Under the pieces are notes generated by a model. That model saw only the letters and a program-made list of their open reading frames with translations. It did not search any database and was not told the origin of the DNA. The position numbers were made by a program, and so were the translations under genes. Shown piece after piece: positions 27,780-36,056 of a DNA stretch of 64,000 bases. Source of the stretch: Frigoribacterium sp. PhB116 (GTDB lineage: Bacteria; Actinomycetota; Actinomycetes; Actinomycetales; Microbacteriaceae). Each line of letters starts with the position of its first letter. Position 1 is the first letter of the stretch. The stretch is from contig NZ_SOBE01000001.1 of the NCBI RefSeq assembly GCF_004364285.1, positions 248,001-312,000 of the forward strand. Direction: 5' to 3'.

Positions 27780-28752
27780 CATCACCGCCCTGCCCCGCCC
27801 GCCGTTCGACCCCGAGTTCGCGCCGTTCCTGGAGGCGATGGACGCCCGCGGCCGCTTCCGCCTCGAGACCGCGATGCTGCCGCGGATGCGACAGCTGGAC
27901 ATGACGGAGGCGCAGCTCGACGAAGGACTGCGCGCCCGCGGTCTCGAGAGGCGCAGCGTCACCGTTCCCGGGCACCTCGGCGACCCGATCGCCCTCGCGG
28001 TCGTGCAGCGCATCGGCCGCACCGGAACCGCGGCCTGCGCCTACGCGATCCACGGCGGCGGAATGATGTTCGGCCACCACCTCGGCAACCTCGACTCGTA
28101 CGACGACTGGCTGTTCGTGCACGACGCCGTCCTGGTCAGCCCCGACTACCGTCTCGCCCCGGAGCACCCCGACCCGTACCCGGTCGAGGACTGCTACGCC
28201 GGCCTCGTCTGGGTCGCCGAGCACGCCGACGAGCTCGGCGTCGACCCGGGGCAGGTCATCGTCGTCGGCCAGAGTGCCGGGGCCGGACTCGCAGCCGGCA
28301 CGGCGCTCCTCGCCCGCGACCGACAGGGGCCGTCCCTCGTCGGGCAGGTGCTCGTGAGCCCCATGCTCGACGATCGCGACGCCACCCTCTCCGCCCGTCA
28401 GTACGACGGCGTGGGCGTCGCCGACCGAGAGATGACCCGGTTCGGCTGGGACGCCTACCTCGGCGACCGCCGCGGCGGTGACGACGTGTCGATCTACGCC
28501 GCTCCCGGCCGCGCGACGGACCTCGCGGGTCTTCCGCCGGCGTACGTCGACTGCGGCAGCGCCGAGGTGTTCCGTGACGAGACCGTCGCCTGGGCCAGCG
28601 CACTCTGGGCGGCCGGCGTGCAGGCGGAGCTGCACGTGTGGCCGGGGGCGTTCCACGGGTCGGCGAGCATGATGCCGGGAGCGACCCTGTCGCGCCGGGC
28701 CGTCACCGCGCTGTGCGAGTGGACCGGGCGCCTCCTCGATCCCACACCCTGA
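27772..28752 (+). CDS. Alpha/beta hydrolase, hormone-sensitive lipase-like
   Basis: 326 residues, GTG start inside the MFS gene. HSL signatures: HGGGMMFG oxyanion loop, nucleophile elbow VVGQSAGAGLAAG, and the catalytic His in WPGAFHGSASM. An Asp is near VDCGSAEVFRDE. Its coupling to a drug-type pump suggests joint handling of an ester or acylated compound, which is inference only. Confidence 0.9.
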   Translation: MPDITALPRPPFDPEFAPFLEAMDARGRFRLETAMLPRMRQLDMTEAQLDEGLRARGLERRSVTVPGHLGDPIALAVVQRIGRTGTAACAYAIHGGGMMFGHHLGNLDSYDDWLFVHDAVLVSPDYRLAPEHPDPYPVEDCYAGLVWVAEHADELGVDPGQVIVVGQSAGAGLAAGTALLARDRQGPSLVGQVLVSPMLDDRDATLSARQYDGVGVADREMTRFGWDAYLGDRRGGDDVSIYAAPGRATDLAGLPPAYVDCGSAEVFRDETVAWASALWAAGVQAELHVWPGAFHGSASMMPGATLSRRAVTALCEWTGRLLDPTP

Positions 28753-28926
28753 CGGGATCCCGGGGCGGGCAGGTGGATCGCCCGCTCCGGGCCCGCCCCT
28801 GGAGGACTCGACCCAGGGTCCCGACCACGAGACCCTAGGACGATCCGTCAGCCGTGACCCATCGACGAACTCCCGGACCGGCCCGACCGTCGACGAGTCG
28901 GGGCCAGTACGCTCGACACCCCTCGA

Positions 28927-29331
28927 TCACGTTCTCCAGGACACGGAGCGGGTGTGCCCGTTCGATGACGGACCGCCCTCGACCGTGTGCCGCTGAGCTC
29001 GCAGGACAAGCGTGCTCGTCACGACGAGGAAGAGCGACACCGCCAGCGTGAGGTGGGCCGCGGGGTTGATCCCGACCTCGAGGAGCCATCCACCCCACCA
29101 CGAGGTGAGCTCGTCGTCCAGGCCCCGGACGAAGGAGTACGTCCGGATCTGGATGATCGAGCTGACGGCGATCTGGAGCAGGGTCAGAGCCGCGAAGCTG
29201 AGTCGAAGCGCGAGCTGGTCTGCCAGGGGTCGTCGTCGGGCGGCGAAGACGAGCACCAGGAGGGCGACGCAGCTGACGACGGTCGTGCCGAGCGACTCGG
29301 GCACCCCAGGACGCGGAGTCGTGATCGCCAC
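28927..29331 (-). CDS. Small membrane protein, unknown function
   Basis: 134 residues, GTG start. Three hydrophobic segments (about residues 14-31, 42-65 and 88-110) are separated by charged loops (AARRRPLADQ, RTYSFVRGLDDELTSWWGG). No family is recognised. It lies alone at the left edge of the accessory region, and copy 1 of the 72-bp repeat is upstream of its start. Confidence 0.6.
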   Translation of the reverse strand: MAITTPRPGVPESLGTTVVSCVALLVLVFAARRRPLADQLALRLSFAALTLLQIAVSSIIQIRTYSFVRGLDDELTSWWGGWLLEVGINPAAHLTLAVSLFLVVTSTLVLRAQRHTVEGGPSSNGHTRSVSWRT

Positions 29332-29410
29332 GAGTGAGTTGTAGCGGTCCGGAACTCATCTCGGTGACGGTGCCGTGAACGGGCAGCTAGATGCAGCGGC
29401 AGCTTGCGGC

Positions 29411-29482
29411 TACGGTGCGGGGGCACCCCAGACCCCGCTGCCGATGGTGGGGTTCCTGGGTGCACCCGGGCGTCCCGCCGGG
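29411..29482 (+). repeat. 72-bp palindromic repeat, copy 1
   Basis: Shares a 37-base identical core with copy 2 at 34378 and is diverged from copy 3 at 44694. The core can fold: CCCAG-ACCCC pairs with GGGGT-(TC)-CTGGG around a 12-nt loop. It ends beside the stop of the broken AraC gene. Confidence 0.8.
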
Positions 29483-29483
29483 A

Positions 29484-30433
29484 TCATCGCTTGAGGGTGT
29501 CGCTGGGGTACTCCCCGAACTTCTCCGTGTAGCTCGCCGCGAACCGGCTGAGGTGGACGAAGCCCCACTCCCGGGCGACGTCGGCGACGGTGCCGGCGTC
29601 GGGGTGCATGTTCGTCAGGACCGCGCGGACGTGCTCGAGCCGGATCCCGCGGAGGTACTCCGTCGGGGTCACCCCGAGTTGGCGACTGAAGGCCTGCTGC
29701 AGGCCTCGGGGGCTGAGGTTGACTGCCTGGGCGATGTCGGTCGCGCTGATCGGGAGGCGTGCGTTGGTGTGGATGTACTCCACCGCCTCCCGGAGGCGTG
29801 CATTTCGCGGAGCGAGGAGGACCGGGTCGACCCGCGGGGCTGTGTGGGCGAAGGTGTCGAGCATCGCGATCGCCGTCATCCGGTTGATCTCGGCGTGCAG
29901 GAGCGGCGACGGCTCCGACCCGAGGACGGTCTTCGCCGCCGTCCCGATGGTCTGCTTCCACTGCCTCAGACGCGCGTCGTCCGGCTTGGTCATCATGTCG
30001 AACACGAGCGGGCCCGGGAGGGCGCCCTCGTGTTCGGCGGCGACCTTCTCGAGGCGTCGAAGTGGACGAGGTTCTGCCGGTAGTCGACCATGTCGAACGA
30101 GAACTGCTTGCCCGTCGGGAACACCACGGGGCGGCCCTGCTCGAGGGCGAGCTGGTCGTCGTCGAGGTCGTAGACGCCCTCGCCGGCGGTGATCCACGCG
30201 ACGATGTACTCGTCCTTGGGCACCAGGGTGCCCTGCATCGACCCGAGGAAGGTCGAGGACCGGAGGGTCATGTCGTCGTTGCCGGTGCTGGTGTACCGGT
30301 AGGAGAAGTCTTGACCGCTGCGCTCGGTGCGGAACTGGTCCCCGTTGTAGGTGTCCTCGTAGAGGGCCCTGGCCTGCTCGAGGCTACGGCCAGCCGTCTC
30401 TGACTTCGCGTAGGAGTCCTCACCTGGTTGCAC
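29484..30433 (-). pseudogene. AraC-family regulator, frameshifted
   Basis: The N-terminal cupin-type ligand-binding part (from MQPGEDSYAKSE to YRQNLVHFD) and the C-terminal part with the double-HTH AraC domain (AVEYIHTNARLPISATDIAQ ... VADVAREWGFVHLSRFAASYTEKFG) lie in different frames. They join at about 30056, where restoring one C on the coding strand (GACGCC to GACCGCC) gives a continuous HFDRLEKVAAEHEG. The rest of the gene, about 316 codons, is intact. So it is either a recent pseudogene or a sequence error. The binding domain is of the AraC_binding_2 type. Confidence 0.85.
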
Positions 30434-30507
30434 CCCGGAACTATGTCACGAAGACGCCCGGTAAAAAGCTCAATAGCTTAGGAAGTGTCCGAATTGCGCG
30501 TTGGCTG

Positions 30508-30951
30508 CTACTGCTGCGACGGGTCGCCGAGGACTTCGCGGAGGGCGACCTTGATCGCGCCGGCGTAGCCGAGAGGCAAGCGGGTGCGCTGGCGGGCGTC
30601 CCCGCGGACGGTCACGACTGCCTCGTCACCGTCAGCGGTGACGTTCCAGGACGTGATCTGCTCGAGCTCGACTACGGTCGGCACGGTCTGGTCGGGCTGG
30701 TCGAGGACGACTCGGTTCCGATAGACGGCAACTCCTCGGGCGTCGTGGTCGACCTCGACGTTGCACTCGAAGACCAGGTCGTCCGGGAGGGCGCCGTAGA
30801 AGTCCGCCCAGTCGTCCGTCAGGGCCACGTCGCTGAGTCCGGGCACGGCCGAGAGCAGCCACTGTGGCTGCTGGCCGGTCGTACGGGACAAGAGCGGGAC
30901 GCTTCCTGGTCGGTTGATGCGCGGGTCACTTTTGCGGACGGGCCACTGCAT
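30508..30951 (-). CDS. Hypothetical protein
   Basis: 147 residues from ATG (MQWPVRKSDPRINRPG). The body looks like a genuine soluble protein (WLLSAVPGLSDVALTDDWAD, DDLVFECNVEVDHDARG) and ends LPLGYAGAIKVALREVLGDP. The frame is open upstream to 31065, but that part is Arg/Pro-rich with no ribosome site. No family recognised. It is divergent from the tiny-ORF cluster at 31191. Confidence 0.55.
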   Translation of the reverse strand: MQWPVRKSDPRINRPGSVPLLSRTTGQQPQWLLSAVPGLSDVALTDDWADFYGALPDDLVFECNVEVDHDARGVAVYRNRVVLDQPDQTVPTVVELEQITSWNVTADGDEAVVTVRGDARQRTRLPLGYAGAIKVALREVLGDPSQQ

Positions 30952-31073
30952 GACGGATGTGGACGGACTCCACTGTGCCCCACGTGTTGCCCGGAGTCGA
31001 AACGGATGTACGCCTTCACAGGGCTGAGCCCCGGAAATTCGGGCGGCAGTACGCATCCCGGTCACGCCCGCGT

Positions 31074-31103
31074 ACCCCAGTTCGTTAAACGTGCACCCCA
31101 GTT
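31074..31103. promoter_or_regulatory. Two direct repeats ACCCCAGTT, 21 bp apart
   Basis: Identical 9-mers at 31074-31082 and 31095-31103, in the same orientation and in phase on the helix. They lie in the region between the hypothetical gene at 30951 and the tiny-ORF operon at 31191. Direct half-sites 21 bp apart are typical of AraC-type regulators, and a broken AraC gene is next door. Confidence 0.4.
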
Positions 31104-31190
31104 GGTCCCGGGCGAGGGGCCTGCCATGGTTCCCCTATCGGCGCTCCTCGAGAGCGCGCGAATCAGCAGCAGCAAGAGACGAGAGACACC

Positions 31191-31355
31191 ATGAGCACCG
31201 TTCACGCCCCGAACAGCGCCACCGCCCGTTCCCCCTTCAGCGAGGTCCGGGACACCTACCGTGAGGCGACCCTCGCCGTCATCGCCACCGCGGCAGTCGC
31301 CGCGTCGGCGTCGCTGATCGCTGCGTTCCTCGTCGCGCTCGGGATCGGTGCATGA
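31191..31355 (+). CDS. 54-residue single-pass membrane peptide, first of a tiny-ORF operon
   Basis: A short polar N-terminus (MSTVHAPNSATARSPFSEVR) is followed by one hydrophobic helix (about residues 27-52, AVIATAAVAASASLIAAFLV). A GAGAGAC sequence precedes the ATG. Its stop overlaps the next start (ATGA). No homologue is recognised. Support comes from the ribosome site, the coherent membrane helix and the chain of overlaps downstream. Confidence 0.6.
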   Translation: MSTVHAPNSATARSPFSEVRDTYREATLAVIATAAVAASASLIAAFLVALGIGA

Positions 31356-31441
31356 ACACCGTCTCGCCCGCCACCCCTTACATCGAGATGACGCCGACAG
31401 AACCGTTCGACGTCGCAGCACTCCTCAAGGAACTCGCATGA
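31352..31441 (+). CDS. 29-residue peptide, second tiny ORF
   Basis: A Thr/Pro-rich start (MNTVSPATPYIEMTPTEP) and a short amphipathic end (FDVAALLKELA). It overlaps both neighbours by four bases (ATGA on each side), so it should be translated by re-initiation. No cysteine; no recognised family. Confidence 0.5.
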   Translation: MNTVSPATPYIEMTPTEPFDVAALLKELA

Positions 31442-31752
31442 CCAGCACCCAGCTCCGCACGCTCAGCCACGACGCCCTCGTCGACCACGTTCGCGCCCGC
31501 CTGACCGGCGCCCCTGCCGCACCTGCCCGCGAGGCCGTCTCTGCGCGGAGCGGCTACGTCGGCCTCGACGGTGTCCCGGCCGTTTGCATCGACGTGTACC
31601 CCAAGCGCCGCCGCCGCGACACGGCCGCAGCCCTGTCGCGCCTGGCACGGATCACCAGCCACCACGAAGTCGGACTCCGGGCATCGGCCGCTGAATTCAC
31701 CTACGCAGACTTCTTCACTTCCGAGCCGGCACAGCTGCTGATGGCGTCCTGA
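31438..31752 (+). CDS. 104-residue hypothetical protein, third tiny ORF
   Basis: Start coupled by ATGA. The N-terminal helix STQLRTLSHDALVDHVRARL is shared in pattern with the peptide at 31860 (STSALQGLAHEDLVSYLKLTL), so the two appear related. The middle has GVPAVCIDVYPKRRRRDTAA and the end is SAAEFTYADFFTSEPAQL. No membrane segment. No family recognised. Confidence 0.6.
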   Translation: MTSTQLRTLSHDALVDHVRARLTGAPAAPAREAVSARSGYVGLDGVPAVCIDVYPKRRRRDTAAALSRLARITSHHEVGLRASAAEFTYADFFTSEPAQLLMAS

Positions 31753-31832
31753 TGACCTTTGCCGAGCGCATCCTCGCCGAGAGCACAACGGACCACGAGT
31801 CCTCCTTCGACACCGCCCTCGAAGACGACTGA
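31752..31832 (+). CDS. 26-residue acidic peptide, fourth tiny ORF
   Basis: ATG overlaps the previous stop by one base (TGATG). The product is MTFAERILAESTTDHESSFD followed by TALEDD, with strongly acidic character. It is kept because it continues the overlap chain; on its own it would be too short to call. Confidence 0.4.
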   Translation: MTFAERILAESTTDHESSFDTALEDD

Positions 31833-31859
31833 GCACACGACTCAGCAACTGACCGACCG

Positions 31860-32012
31860 ATGACGCCCAGAAAAGCCGCGAACCGGAGCACCACAGGCCC
31901 CGTGCTCTCGACATCCGCACTACAGGGCCTGGCCCACGAGGACCTCGTCAGCTATCTGAAACTGACGCTCGCAGTCACGTCCTCTGGATCGGATCCCTCC
32001 CTCATCTCCTGA
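31860..32012 (+). CDS. 50-residue peptide, fifth tiny ORF
   Basis: Starts 27 bases after the fourth ORF. The basic N-terminus (MTPRKAANRS) precedes the STSALQGLAHEDLVSYLKLTL segment, which matches the start of the 104-residue protein in spacing and key residues (L..L.H..LV......L). It may be a truncated duplicate or a partner. No strong ribosome site is visible. Confidence 0.45.
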   Translation: MTPRKAANRSTTGPVLSTSALQGLAHEDLVSYLKLTLAVTSSGSDPSLIS

Positions 32013-32056
32013 CCTCAGCCAGCTCGCCCGGAGTTGCCGGTGCTGACTGATCGAAC

Positions 32057-32173
32057 GCCTCCATCCGCGCTCCCGCACCCGCAGTCCCTAGCTGCGGTCC
32101 AGATGGAGGCTCCGTGAAGCGATGACGCTTCGCTCTGCTGGGTCGCTGTGACCCGAAGATCAGCGACCCAGCA
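32057..32173 (+). ncRNA. Structured non-coding region: three successive perfect hairpins
   Basis: Hairpin 1: GCCTCCATC (32057-32065) pairs with GATGGAGGC (32102-32110) and encloses an inner stem CCGCAG/CTGCGG (32079-32097). Hairpin 2: GAAGCG-ATGA-CGCTTC (32116-32131). Hairpin 3: 13-bp TGCTGGGTCGCTG / CAGCGACCCAGCA with a 12-nt loop (32136-32173). It begins 45 bases after the last tiny ORF. It may be a small RNA, a processed 3' leader or a compound terminator; strand is assumed from the neighbours. Confidence 0.5.
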
Positions 32174-32290
32174 ACACCTGCGGCAAAGGCACCGCGATGC
32201 CACCGAACCGGCCCACGAGCCGTGGAGCCCGGCCAGCGATCGTCTACCGGACGCAGTCAGCACCTCCAGACACCCTGGGATGCTCGTGTC

Positions 32291-32497
32291 ATGACTGTTG
32301 GACTTGGTGCTGCCACGGCGACCGTCATCGTTTTTCTCGTCATGGCGGTACGACGAAACCGACACACTCGCCAGCTCATCGATCAAGGCGACCTAGAGCC
32401 CGCAGCGGCCCTGGAGTCGCGTCTACAGATTCGAGTCTTCTCAGTGGCACTCGGTCTCACGATCATTGCGACAGTCGCGTCCGCCCTCGTCGTGTGA
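32291..32497 (+). CDS. Small two-helix membrane protein
   Basis: 68 residues. One helix at the N-terminus (GLGAATATVIVFLVMAV), a charged loop of about 30 residues (RRNRHTRQLIDQGDLEPAAA) and a C-terminal helix (FSVALGLTIIATVASALVV). No family recognised. It resembles in layout the 62-residue protein at 51364. Convergent with the CDF transporter gene, 52 bases apart. Confidence 0.6.
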   Translation: MTVGLGAATATVIVFLVMAVRRNRHTRQLIDQGDLEPAAALESRLQIRVFSVALGLTIIATVASALVV

Positions 32498-32549
32498 GTG
32501 CAGCCCCTGATCCTGGGCGACCAGCTCGGGAGCACTGACCTTCTCTTGA

Positions 32550-33557
32550 TCAGCGTTCCCCGCCGGACGCGGCCAGCCCGGGCAGGAACTCCCCCGGCAG
32601 TTCGGCGGTGGGCACGATCACGATGTCCTGCACCTTCCAGTCCAGGTGCACGCACTCCGACCGTGCCTGCTCGAGTTCCTGGAGGGACGGCATCGACCCG
32701 TCCACGGGAACGACGAACGATTCGACATGGAACACGTGTCCCTCGTCTCGGACCCGTGATCTCGCCTCAGCCACCCAGGCCAGCCCGGTCAGGTGGTGGT
32801 CGATGCGATCGCTGAGCGGATGTGCCTCGTGCTCGTCGTACGTCCTCGCTCGGGTGTCGATCAAGGCTGCGACGGCGCCCTTCACGTTCCTCCGGCCGTC
32901 GCGCACGATGCTGAGCGAGATCAACAGCGCTGCGACGGAGTCTGCCCACCACCATCCGATCCCGATGCCGACGATGCCCGCGATCGCGGCGACGCCGGTC
33001 GTCCAGTCGGCCTTGTTCATGTCGGCGTCGGCGTAGAGGACCTTGTCGTGCAGGGTCTCGGACAGCTTCAGCTTCGCACGGCCCAGGAGCACCGGGGCGA
33101 TCGATGTCACCGCGAGCGTCGCGATCATGAGCCAGCCGAGCCAGACCGTGTGGCCGAAGAGCTCGATGCCGCCGATCGTCGGGTGCTCGGCGGTGAGGAG
33201 CTTCGATCCGGAGTCGACGATGAGGTAGGCGCCCATCACGAGCAGGGCGGCGGCGGCCACGAGGTGCGCGATGCCGGTGGCTCGGTGGAAGCCGTAGGGG
33301 TGGTCCTCGGTCGGTGGACGACGGATGATCCGGGTGGCCACGAGGAACGCGATCGGGGGCAGGAAGGACAGCATGTCCTCGACCCAGGCCGCCCGCATCG
33401 CCTGGGAGCTGCCGAGCACCAGGAACATCAGCGTCACGGTCACGACCAGCACCCCGACGGTGATCCACTCGAGCTGGACGGCTCGCCTCAGGGCGTCGCG
33501 TTGTTCGTCCGGGAGCGCGGTGTGCCCGAACTTCGCGGCCCGGTCGGCGCTCGTCAT
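32550..33557 (-). CDS. Cation diffusion facilitator (CDF) family transporter
   Basis: 335 residues. Six membrane segments. CDF features include EDHPYGFHRATG, the YADADMNKADW helix with metal-binding Asp residues and WWWADSVAALLISLSIVRDG, followed by a cytoplasmic C-terminal domain with HVFHVESFVVPVDG. It should export a divalent metal (Zn, Co, Mn or Fe) by proton exchange; the metal cannot be chosen from sequence. The ATG is coupled (ATGA) to the stop of the lipoprotein gene. Confidence 0.88.
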   Translation of the reverse strand: MTSADRAAKFGHTALPDEQRDALRRAVQLEWITVGVLVVTVTLMFLVLGSSQAMRAAWVEDMLSFLPPIAFLVATRIIRRPPTEDHPYGFHRATGIAHLVAAAALLVMGAYLIVDSGSKLLTAEHPTIGGIELFGHTVWLGWLMIATLAVTSIAPVLLGRAKLKLSETLHDKVLYADADMNKADWTTGVAAIAGIVGIGIGWWWADSVAALLISLSIVRDGRRNVKGAVAALIDTRARTYDEHEAHPLSDRIDHHLTGLAWVAEARSRVRDEGHVFHVESFVVPVDGSMPSLQELEQARSECVHLDWKVQDIVIVPTAELPGEFLPGLAASGGER

Positions 33558-34048
33558 CGCGGACCGTCCGCGCCGAGCAGGAACGCGTCGAGCTCGAGCA
33601 GGAAGCGGTTCTCGCCCCGTGGCACCAACATCACGTGCTCCACCGTCGCGCCGCCCTCGTCGCTGCCCGTCGTGTAGGGCCGAGTCGTGCCCGCCTTCTC
33701 CGACCACGGCGTCTCCGCCGTCAGCCCGCCGATCACCAGATCGAGGTCACCCTCCTCCAGGTCGCCCACCAGTGCCTCCTCGCTGCCCGTGGACCACTCC
33801 ACTTCCGCACCGAGGGTCGACGCGAACGACCTCACCAGCTCGGGCTCCGTGCCGACCGGGTCTGCCCCCTCGCGGACATCGACCCACGTGCCGTTCTCGG
33901 TCGCCCCCACCCTCAACGTGCCTCCGCTCGCCCTGTCGAGGGTCCCGTCCGGATCGGTCGGGATCGTCGCTCCGCAGCCGGCCAGGAGGAGCATCGACAG
34001 CCCGCAGACCACCGCCGTCCTCGCAGTCTCATGTCGCCGCACGCCCAC
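33554..34048 (-). CDS. Lipoprotein with a short substrate-binding (SBP_bac_3-like) domain
   Basis: 164 residues. Lipoprotein signal with lipobox LLLAGC, then a domain resembling the first lobe of family 3 solute-binding proteins: LRVGATENGTWVDV, VGTEPELVRSFASTLGAEVEW, EEGDLDLVIGGLTAETPW, EKAGTTRPYTT. It is about half the length of a normal binding protein (about 250 residues), so it may hold only one lobe. It is cotranscribed with the CDF transporter, hinting at a metal-binding or sensing role. GTG start; a second GTG six bases on is also possible. Confidence 0.75.
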   Translation of the reverse strand: MGVRRHETARTAVVCGLSMLLLAGCGATIPTDPDGTLDRASGGTLRVGATENGTWVDVREGADPVGTEPELVRSFASTLGAEVEWSTGSEEALVGDLEEGDLDLVIGGLTAETPWSEKAGTTRPYTTGSDEGGATVEHVMLVPRGENRFLLELDAFLLGADGPR

Positions 34049-34377
34049 ACCTCGATGATGAAGCCCAGAGGCGAGCTCCTCGTCGCCATCCTCCCGCAGC
34101 AGGACGGCCGGAAGTCAAGGGGTCCCGCCGACGCAAGGCCAGGAGTAGGGCACCCGGGCGGTGACGCCGATGCGCTGGCTTCCGACGCCACGAACAATCC
34201 GACGACGAATCCCGGCAGGGAGATCTCCTCTCGTGCAGTCCGACACCCTTCGAGTTCGACGACTGCGGCCGATCAACCGCAGGCAATCACTTACGGCGCG
34301 ACACTGAGATCATGCGGATCTGCTCTCATCGAGACCGGGTCCATACCGAGCCTGTAGGCGCAGGGTCGCCTCATGGC

Positions 34378-34450
34378 TATGTTGCTGGGGCAGCCCAGAC
34401 CCCGCTGCCGATGGTGGGGTTCCTGGGTGCGCCCCGGGTTCCCCGCCGGG
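34378..34450 (+). repeat. 72-bp palindromic repeat, copy 2
   Basis: Same orientation as copy 1 at 29411, with 37 identical bases in the core (CCCAGACCCCGCTGCCGATG onward). Intergenic. Confidence 0.8.
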
Positions 34451-34862
34451 TCACCGATGTACGCGTGATCGCGTCCCGGGACGAACGAGACGAAGGTGTC
34501 TTGACGGTAATGGTGTCAGGACGCAGATCGACCGTCGTCATTCCGCACCACGTGCTCGCCGTCCTCGAACGCGAATGGGCCGACGCAGACACACTCCCCC
34601 GAAGCGTCCGGTCTAACGCGGGACGCTCTTCCGCGTCGTCACCACGGGTGCGCACGGTACCTCCTGCGGGTGGCCGGGAGTCAACCCCCTCACATCGTCT
34701 CTCGCACCGACCTAGCGTGGATGACGTCCGGGGGGCAGCGAAGACGCTGTCCACCTGGCGCCTCGACAGGCACCGAGAACAATCGGGGAACAGCAGAACG
34801 CTTCCTGCAAGGAGCGCAGGTCCTACCAGCCAGCCACAGCGTGGCCGGCCGACGAGACCACC

Positions 34863-34892
34863 GCGGGGACCCACCACCAGGAGGGTCCCCGC
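34863..34892 (+). promoter_or_regulatory. 10-bp hairpin 34 bases before the SDR gene
   Basis: GCGGGGACCC - ACCACCAGGA - GGGTCCCCGC, perfect. It lies in the presumed 5' leader just ahead of the GGAAGG ribosome site. It could attenuate or terminate transcription. Confidence 0.5.
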
Positions 34893-34926
34893 CCCACTTC
34901 CACCACGAACCACGGAAGGCAGGACC

Positions 34927-35694
34927 ATGACCGACTTCACCGATCGCACCGTCCTCATCACCGGAGGAGCGGGAGGCATCGGAGCCGCCACGGCGAAGAT
35001 GTTCTTCGACGCCGGCGCCCGCGTCGCCCTCGTCGACGTCGACCAGGACGCCCTCGACCAGCAGGCGACCTCCCTCGGGTCCGACGCACGCATCCTCACG
35101 ATCCAGGCCGACGTCTCCGACCCGGGCGACGTCGCCCGCTACGTCCAGACCACCCTCGACGAGCTCGGGCACATCGACGTGTTCTTCAACAACGCCGGCA
35201 TCGAGGGCAAGGTCGCGAACCTCGTCGACACGACCCCCGAGGACTTCGACCGTGTCATTGGCATCAACCTCCGAGGAGCCTTCCTCGGCCTCCACCAGGT
35301 CCTCCCCCACATGACCGACCGCGGCAGGGGCAGCATCATCAACACCTCCTCCGTCGCCGGCCTCGACGGCGCCCCCGGACTCAGCCCCTACGTGGCCTCG
35401 AAGCACGCCGTCACCGGACTCACGAAAGCCGCGGCTCTCGAGGTCGCCGGCACCGGTGTCCGGGTCAATTCGATCCACCCCTCCCCCGTGAACACCCGCA
35501 TGATGCGCTCCATCGAAGCCGGCGGCGGCGACGCCGAAGCCCAGCGCCAGGCGTACGAACAGGGCATCCCCCTCGGCCGCTACGCCGAAGCGACCGACAT
35601 CGCCTCCCTCGTGGTGTTCCTCGCCTCCGACGAGGCCGCGTTCATCACCGGCGCCCAGTACCGCATCGACGGTGGCATGGGCGCCAGCCAATGA
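34927..35694 (+). CDS. Short-chain dehydrogenase/reductase (SDR)
   Basis: 255 residues. Classical SDR: cofactor motif TGGAGGIGAA, VALVDVDQDAL with an acidic end to beta2 (prefers NAD), NNAG, catalytic Ser in INTSSVAG and YVASKHAV (Tyr-x3-Lys), and the C-terminal ITGAQYRIDGG. Substrate unknown. ATG follows GGAAGG. Its stop overlaps the next gene by four bases. Confidence 0.93.
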   Translation: MTDFTDRTVLITGGAGGIGAATAKMFFDAGARVALVDVDQDALDQQATSLGSDARILTIQADVSDPGDVARYVQTTLDELGHIDVFFNNAGIEGKVANLVDTTPEDFDRVIGINLRGAFLGLHQVLPHMTDRGRGSIINTSSVAGLDGAPGLSPYVASKHAVTGLTKAAALEVAGTGVRVNSIHPSPVNTRMMRSIEAGGGDAEAQRQAYEQGIPLGRYAEATDIASLVVFLASDEAAFITGAQYRIDGGMGASQ

Positions 35695-36056
35695 CCCACC
35701 CACCCACCGATCGACGCGGAGGGAGGCCGACGGAGGCGCGGCGCGATGATCCGACGCTGGTCAGGAATCAGCCCGCCATCGGGCAGGGCCGCCGTCGACA
35801 GTGGCTGGTGCCGGCGGCACTCCTCGCGGCCATCACCATCGGCCTCATGATCATCGCCCTCGACCTCCAGACGGCCGTTCCCGTCGCGGGCATCGTCATC
35901 GTCAGCACGCTGCTCACCGCGATGGTCGTGGTGGCGCTCGTCGTCGAGCCGACCCGACGACGCAACATCGTGTCTGCCTGGCTGATGAGCACCATGGGGC
36001 TCGTGGCCCTCACTCTGCCGGTGCTGCTCCTCATCGGCCAGGCGCGCCCGAGCTGA
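35691..36056 (+). CDS. Small membrane protein coupled to the SDR
   Basis: 121 residues. A basic, polar N-terminus of about 35 residues precedes three hydrophobic segments (VPAALLAAITIGLMIIAL, AGIVIVSTLLTAMVVVALVV, MSTMGLVALTLPVLLLIG). ATGA overlap with the SDR. No family recognised. Confidence 0.65.
   Translation: MTHPPTDRRGGRPTEARRDDPTLVRNQPAIGQGRRRQWLVPAALLAAITIGLMIIALDLQTAVPVAGIVIVSTLLTAMVVVALVVEPTRRRNIVSAWLMSTMGLVALTLPVLLLIGQARPS

Follow-up and report, generated by a model that had tools for sequence, protein, structure and literature searches.

The window analyzed here, the whole 64,000-nucleotide stretch of Frigoribacterium sp. PhB116 DNA, harbors a chain of five tiny open reading frames (ORFs) lying between an AraC-type regulator gene and a structured 3' element (Table 1). 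A preliminary description of this DNA had listed ORFs of 54, 29, 104, 26, and 50 codons, four of them overlapping, and the positions, overlaps, and gap are all as it claimed: the junctions from ORF1 to ORF4 overlap by 4, 4, and 1 nt (ATGA, ATGA, and TGATG), and ORF5 follows ORF4 after 27 nt. GC content at codon position 3 ranges from 0.76 to 0.88 across the five ORFs and exceeds that at position 2 in every one of them. ORF1 had been taken for a single-pass membrane peptide, and reading of its sequence, with its one hydrophobic segment, bears this out.

Table 1. Features of the small-ORF chain and its immediate surroundings (window coordinates).
Feature	Positions	Strand	Description
AraC-type regulator gene in two frames	29487..30433	-	29487-30197 with HTH_18; 29996-30433 N-terminal part
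185-codon ORF between AraC gene and module	30511..31065	-	No Pfam match at E <= 1
Hairpin 5' of ORF1	31141..31157	+	GCGCTC-CTCGA-GAGCGC; without the RUUCACGG loop of the conserved leader
Ribosome-binding-like site	31175..31183	+	AGAGACGAG; consensus AGRRAYGAG, as in 30 aligned leaders
ORF1, family M	31191..31355	+	54 aa; N-terminal SPFSEVRD..R..TL, then one hydrophobic segment
ORF2, family D	31352..31441	+	29 aa; motif TEPFDVAALL (other loci: TQPLDLAELF)
ORF3, H-Y fusion	31438..31752	+	104 aa; H helix L..LSHDALVDHV and Y region SGYVGLDGVPAVCIDVYPKRRR...FTYADFF
ORF4, family F	31752..31832	+	26 aa; MTFAERIL...DH..SFDT..EDD
ORF5, family H	31860..32012	+	50 codons; stand-alone helix LQGLAHEDLVSYL
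3' structured element	32057..32173	+	Three strong stems, no U-run; conserved 3' of H in other clusters

Reading of the loci of relatives yields five recurrent small-protein families, designated M (consensus SPFSEVRD..RQ.TL followed by one hydrophobic segment), D (TQPLDLAELF), H (L..L.HE.LV..V), Y (S.Y.R...VP.ARI..YPKRRR ... P.YADFF), and F (..RIL...DHVSYFDT.IDDDDLD). These families are real, they occur in multiple copies in Frigoribacterium and in a second genus, they evolve under purifying selection, and they often keep the same order with 4-nt overlaps. In a blind test, family HMMs built from other loci, without window seeds, were run on 589 window ORFs; the seeds for M and Y had been obtained by searching with the window proteins, and those for D, F, and most of H by their position beside the former. 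Every window ORF ranks first for its own family: ORF1 for M (E 1.3e-24), ORF2 for D (2e-4), ORF3 for Y (2.3e-14), and ORF4 for F (3.6e-11). The stand-alone H profile places ORF5 at the top (4.3e-8) and the frame holding ORF3 second (1e-5), and a profile of the H part of H-Y proteins returns ORF3 first (6.3e-10) and ORF5 second (0.0027). The five ORFs are hence real family members, above chance. Relatives of ORF1 and ORF3 are found in all 16 Frigoribacterium genomes, the source genome included (E <= 0.1), in keeping with conservation of these frames. Since no close orthologue of the window module was found, pN/pS was measured on paralogous copies of the window genes, in three orthologue sets of relatives, and it lies below 1 in every frame, with a range of 0.05–0.63 that indicates purifying rather than neutral evolution of those copies. 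The individual values are 0.13 (3 genomes) and 0.17 (6 genomes) for M, 0.40 (3 genomes) for D, 0.31 (3 genomes) and 0.19 (7 genomes) for Y, 0.63 (3 genomes) and 0.05 (7 genomes) for F, and 0.17 (7 genomes) and 0.40 (5 genomes) for H; set C of the latter comprises five of six genomes, the search pattern having missed one. Conservation of the families is thus firm.

The preliminary description recognized no known family in these peptides, and database searches uphold this view. None of the five window ORFs has a Pfam match below E 0.1, ORF1 giving 0.16 and 0.27, and no family such as the YmgB/AriR type, which would point to the small proteins of the Escherichia coli ycgZ-ymgABC operon, appears among the matches at E <= 1 for the five. 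NCBIfam returned no match for ORF1, ORF3, ORF5, and relatives of D, F, H, Y, and M, PADLOC none for ORF1, ORF3, and ORF5, and no prior work on the five families was found in open-licence PMC papers. The helix pattern that ORF3 and ORF5 have in common, earlier ascribed to duplication and divergence, stands at the profile level, but direct BLASTP of the pair gives no match and hence does not establish a local duplication. As ORF5 matches the H peptide of another cluster (12 of 21 residues identical by BLASTP, in the cluster at about 57-58 kb of contig C7 of the same genome) and not ORF3 directly, the helix is better read as a recurrent module, occurring alone or fused to Y.

The arrangement of these genes in other loci follows the one in the window to varying degrees. 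On contig C7 of the source genome M, D, H-Y, and F stand in succession with 4-nt overlaps, an arrangement that G012 and G015 repeat (M-D-Y-F with 4-nt overlaps; three genomes in all), and in the second genus (g5, L162) M, D, and Y are joined by 4-nt overlaps and precede an H peptide, so that conservation of the start/stop overlaps extends beyond Frigoribacterium. The remaining loci carry subsets of the families, with presence and order differing between loci, and M occurs without the other peptides at several of them. The C7 57-58 kb cluster encodes two ORFs of 77-93 codons, then Y, D, and H, and its H peptide is followed by the same three-stem element that lies 3' of ORF5. This cluster is divergent to an ECF sigma gene in both the source genome and G006, and the annotation of a Frigoribacterium plasmid shows a similar layout. 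The 3' part of the window module, ORF5 with the 3' element, is thus common to it and this kind of cluster, and its 5' part to it and a different kind. The 3' element shows two-sided changes in 9 of 44 predicted pairs (5 sequences) and is conserved in four other places, which substantiates the structured non-coding flank noted earlier. A search of a plasmid collection with the window DNA (distant mode) returned a single record, NZ_CP043651.1, covering 8% of the query in the part from ORF5 to the 3' element, and the second Y protein of the source genome had no match in that collection. As a separate observation, an ECF sigma gene with two downstream ORFs is divergent to a second tiny-ORF cluster at L203 (G000:C7:50000-62349, 8.3-11 kb), L205, and L202; one of the downstream ORFs is weakly Asp23-like (E 0.017, below the cut-off), and the ECF sigma gene and tiny-ORF set are also present on NZ_CP043651.1.

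Profiles of family M reach 32 of the 398 Microbacteriaceae genomes and 9 of the 85 genera searched, strongly in genera g1 and g5 only. Among 16 weaker or new M places that were read (17 loci, two of which are the same place), a MarR gene adjoins M in six, distributed over genera g3 (four), g55 (one), and g32 (one); a small protein, labeled a, lies beside M in nine, and in one place M is divergent from a BLUF-TetR ORF. The g32 locus (L291) has the order YWY MarR, m1, m2, M, and Y-like ORF, with the regulator and boxes described below. Across 13 diverse M proteins, most residues that are invariant or nearly so belong to the polar N-terminal motif (S, F, E, R, and R); the hydrophobic part contributes a single L and a single A. 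This concentration of conservation in the polar motif suggests that it holds a partner. An order-wide search with Y (396 genomes) matched three genomes, namely the source genome and two with weak matches (E 1e-4 and 0.008) that did not prove module-like on reading.

Many module copies are preceded by a covarying two-hairpin leader RNA and, upstream of it, a fixed palindrome. The leader spans about 80 nt and consists of hairpin A (7 pairs, loop RUUCACGG with UUCACGG invariant), hairpin B (6 pairs, loop GCAGG), and AGRRAYGAG before the start codon. In an alignment of 30 sequences, 27 from Frigoribacterium and 3 from g5, two-sided changes occur in 9 of the 13 pairs, and base pairing holds in 92.8% of cells. 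The alignment has a covariation score of 0.540, compared with 0.245 +/- 0.020 in shuffled and at most 0.151 in slid alignments, although the count of pairs with two-sided changes is not by itself clearly above shuffles, 105 of 500 of which reach it. A covariance model of the leader detects it in every one of the 16 genus genomes (56 rows in total). At the family level the model matches 12 of 299 genomes, all of them in genera g1 and g5 (E <= 1e-4, strict filters). Of 29 aligned leaders, 27 have box m1 (TRTCC-N5-GCGMAC) at -70 to -74. Palindrome m2 (TAGYTAG-N5-CTAGCTA) is present in 26 of them, at -43 to -57, and absent from the remaining three. The exact core CGRTTCACGGCG has six sites in the source genome, two of them in genuine leaders and four attributed to chance. 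Rfam returned no match on window positions 28000-36000, and its three microRNA matches on seven loci of relatives (E 0.04-0.09) were judged to be chance. At a separate locus (L182, 8821-8865), three overlapping m2 palindromes stand in a row downstream of a MarR gene.

Module neighbors are often MarR, TetR, or AraC regulators, ECF sigma genes also lie beside copies, and MarR and AraC genes occur near modules more often than expected. Across 14 genomes and 69 module places, 14 of 54 MarR genes (0.28 expected) and 13 of 86 AraC genes (0.54 expected) are located within 1.5 kb of a module, and 44 of the 69 places have neither a MarR gene (profile A6) nor an AraC gene (profile A7) within this distance. 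Because both profiles were built from module neighbors, the counts were repeated with seeds and previously seen genes left out, giving 5 of 45 MarR genes (0.23 expected; the exact denominator is 44) and 10 of 83 AraC genes (0.52 expected). The module places were assembled for the 14 genomes from several searches, two ranges being approximate. Rows of ORF3 relatives with E above about 0.01, the leader at G007:C1:663057, and G000:C1:1394090, an A5 match that adjoins an aldo-keto reductase gene, were dropped by judgement; M places from the later family-wide search were left out, and the two frames of the window AraC gene were merged (87 rows to 86 genes).

A GYWY motif marks one group of MarR regulators (YWY MarR). 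The copy at L181 exceeds the curated Pfam cut-offs for MarR_2 (5.9e-9, 36.4 bits against 27) and MarR (4.8e-8, 33.2 bits against 24.6), and the group differs from the MarR family at large by its N-terminal stretch FDASGYWY and by having m2 as its own palindrome. In 13 of 14 loci the YWY MarR gene has an m2 site at its own start; in the fourteenth (G019), the best m2 site is that of the divergent leader. Among other MarR homologues, 1 of 16 has a strong upstream m2 site (G295, 21.3) and fifteen score below 7, and of 2000 control windows six score at least 11 and two reach 16, at least one of the high-scoring ones being probably a true MarR site. In the source genome the YWY MarR gene is found at C4 72934, away from any module. 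From this distribution we infer that YWY MarR would bind m2, repress its own gene, and control the leader-bearing operons, and such regulation is a good inference. Sites for m2 or m1 are also present upstream of an aminotransferase-like gene (pabC-like, by eye) beside single Y modules (L177, 10842-10873; L189, 11138 and 11256), and the proposed regulon may therefore take in ordinary enzymes.

The copy in the window departs from this scheme. A leader model (R1) gives no match above noise on the window (best rows E >= 0.27), and no m2 was found near the start of ORF1 (31191). The module lies 758 bp from the two-frame AraC gene, which is either frame-broken or affected by a sequence error; intact relatives of about 320 codons exist elsewhere. 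The same layout, in which the AraC gene faces away and the module follows, occurs with an intact AraC gene in G010 (L255), and an AraC-then-module layout with an intervening TetR gene is seen at L255-L257. The AraC-type operator proposed earlier is upheld as to the regulator, since an AraC gene does flank the module, and not as to the operator, as no shared one was found. An m1-like stretch upstream of the AraC gene (at about 30480), seen by eye, scores below 10 and is not claimed. Because it has no leader and no m2 and adjoins a broken AraC gene, the window copy is considered atypical, either differently controlled or decaying, and it may be under AraC control. The region is flanked by a 102-nt direct repeat (29388-29489 and 34355-34456, 78% identical). 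Downstream, a 91-codon ORF with a hydrophobic stretch (32222-32494, plus strand) probably encodes a conserved small membrane protein, its DNA being 77% identical over 216 bases to G001:C2:144547.

The interpretation favored here, held at somewhat short of even confidence, is that the five ORFs represent one copy of a Microbacteriaceae small-protein operon with the order M-D-HY-F-H, translationally coupled, membrane-tethered, and regulatory in role. Genes that overlap by 4 nt or 1 nt are coupled in translation, and such overlaps are enriched where the products are subunits of complexes (PMC10666635); those in the module would likewise couple translation and hold the peptides at a fixed ratio. 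M is predicted to sit in the membrane by its one segment, with the N-terminal SPFSEVR motif holding a cytosolic partner, and D, Y, F, and H may be short adaptor peptides of its complex, feeding a regulator or stress signaling. Under this model, the leader and m2 would have disappeared from the window copy, or never been part of it, and the copy lies beside the broken AraC gene. The function proposed for the peptides is a guess, for which the E. coli ycgZ-ymgABC operon may serve as a working parallel. That operon encodes small proteins under BluR/BluF, with the AraC-type MarA also acting (PMC3509220, PMC6900184). The likeness lies in several small proteins placed in an operon under a dedicated repressor, with an AraC-type regulator in addition, and in the presence of BLUF-like ORFs near some copies here (L180, L263, and L287). 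The systems differ in that no sequence relation is seen (Pfam), the regulators here are of the MarR, AraC, and TetR families, and the operons described here have a covarying leader RNA, a membrane peptide, and multiple copies. Several findings sit uneasily with the coupled-complex interpretation: the 44 module places with no MarR or AraC gene nearby, the origin of the regulator profiles in module neighbors, the window copy without leader and m2, the three of 29 leaders that have no m2, the m2 site upstream of the pabC-like gene (L177), which does not encode a small peptide, and the varying presence and order of the peptides, which fit a fixed complex loosely.

The closest rival to the complex reading is that the peptides act directly on the neighboring regulator, as antirepressors or co-repressors, each copy serving its own neighbor. 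The MarR, AraC, TetR, and ECF sigma genes beside many copies and the runs of M, a, and MarR in other genera speak for such a role. ArmR, a protein of 53 residues, offers one precedent. It is described as the antirepressor of the MarR-family regulator MexR in Pseudomonas aeruginosa (PMC3290565), and ANR proteins, which are small and act on AraC-type regulators, offer another (PMC10148876). For the ArmR comparison, the tie seen here between peptides and regulator is one of gene neighborhood. ArmR, as described, is a single soluble peptide without an overlap chain or leader family, and the ANR proteins, compared via Pfam only, come from enteric pathogens, whereas AraC is one of several neighbor types here. 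Similar peptides lie beside regulators of different families, an odd pairing if a single binding surface were involved, and many copies have no nearby regulator, so that direct modulation appears fairly unlikely. It is also unlikely that the window module is a remnant, an old copy next to a broken AraC gene that has shed both leader and operator and whose frames are still open by chance. The missing leader and m2, the AraC gene in two frames, the shortened ORF4 with EDD for DDDDLD, and the identity of ORF3 to its relatives, only about 30-42%, would all fit decay. All five frames are nonetheless open, with starts and overlaps intact and position-3 GC kept, and they score as family members. A remnant in the window would in any case be compatible with the coupled-operon interpretation for the family as a whole.

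Other functions put forward for this unit fare worse. Type I toxins are short hydrophobic peptides encoded behind a structured leader, and M resembles them in all these respects. A toxin-antitoxin or small-membrane-toxin module with M as the toxin is nevertheless highly improbable: no Pfam match (five ORFs) or PADLOC match (ORF1, ORF3, and ORF5) was obtained, no antitoxin-like partner is seen, M recurs without the other peptides at several loci and alone beside MarR, and the residues conserved in M belong chiefly to the polar N-terminal motif rather than to the hydrophobic part. Similarly, the several short peptides per locus, each with a constant motif, could recall precursors of RiPPs or secreted signals, and the peptide signaling raised earlier may apply, if with low probability. 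No maturation or export gene was recognized beside the copies (gene lists read by eye), and the peptides have no common leader-core layout. A phage-related module finds no support either, as ORF3 had no tblastn match in 50,697 phage records, and PHROGs searches with ORF1, ORF3, ORF5, and five relatives gave two matches only (E 0.024 and 0.06), both regarded as noise.

A broader proposal, somewhat more tentative than the operon interpretation itself, would see the family as dispersed micro-operons under an autoregulated YWY MarR, acting through a single palindrome and covarying leaders of a new class, in which the coupled peptides M, D, Y, F, and H form membrane-tethered complexes that rewire regulators (MarR, AraC, TetR, and ECF sigma), with the window copy as an offshoot outside this control. 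If true, it would amount to a previously undescribed regulatory system of leaf-associated Microbacteriaceae, and a membrane-tethered complex of these peptides would clearly exemplify a regulatory assembly consisting entirely of tiny proteins in leaf-surface bacteria. Annotation readily overlooks genes of 26-60 codons, and the system would add an RNA motif and protein families missing from Rfam and Pfam. Because the five families recur ordered, overlapping, and in multiple copies, accompanied by a leader RNA and a regulator that is probably dedicated to them, the set of one likely regulator, one palindrome, one leader, and five peptide families is directly testable.

Two further kinds of gene are found in the vicinity of modules. 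GAF-ANTAR proteins are encoded near two of them (L190, 10320-11033, ANTAR 2.8e-17; L192, 13005-14436, by eye), and since RNAs with two hairpins are the targets of ANTAR proteins, the leader might be read by these. The BLUF-like ORFs, identified by eye and with a two-sequence HMM, lie at 5421-5849 of L180, 135-512 of L263, and 1187-2233 of L287, the last being fused to a TetR-like region, and light is a possible input at these copies.
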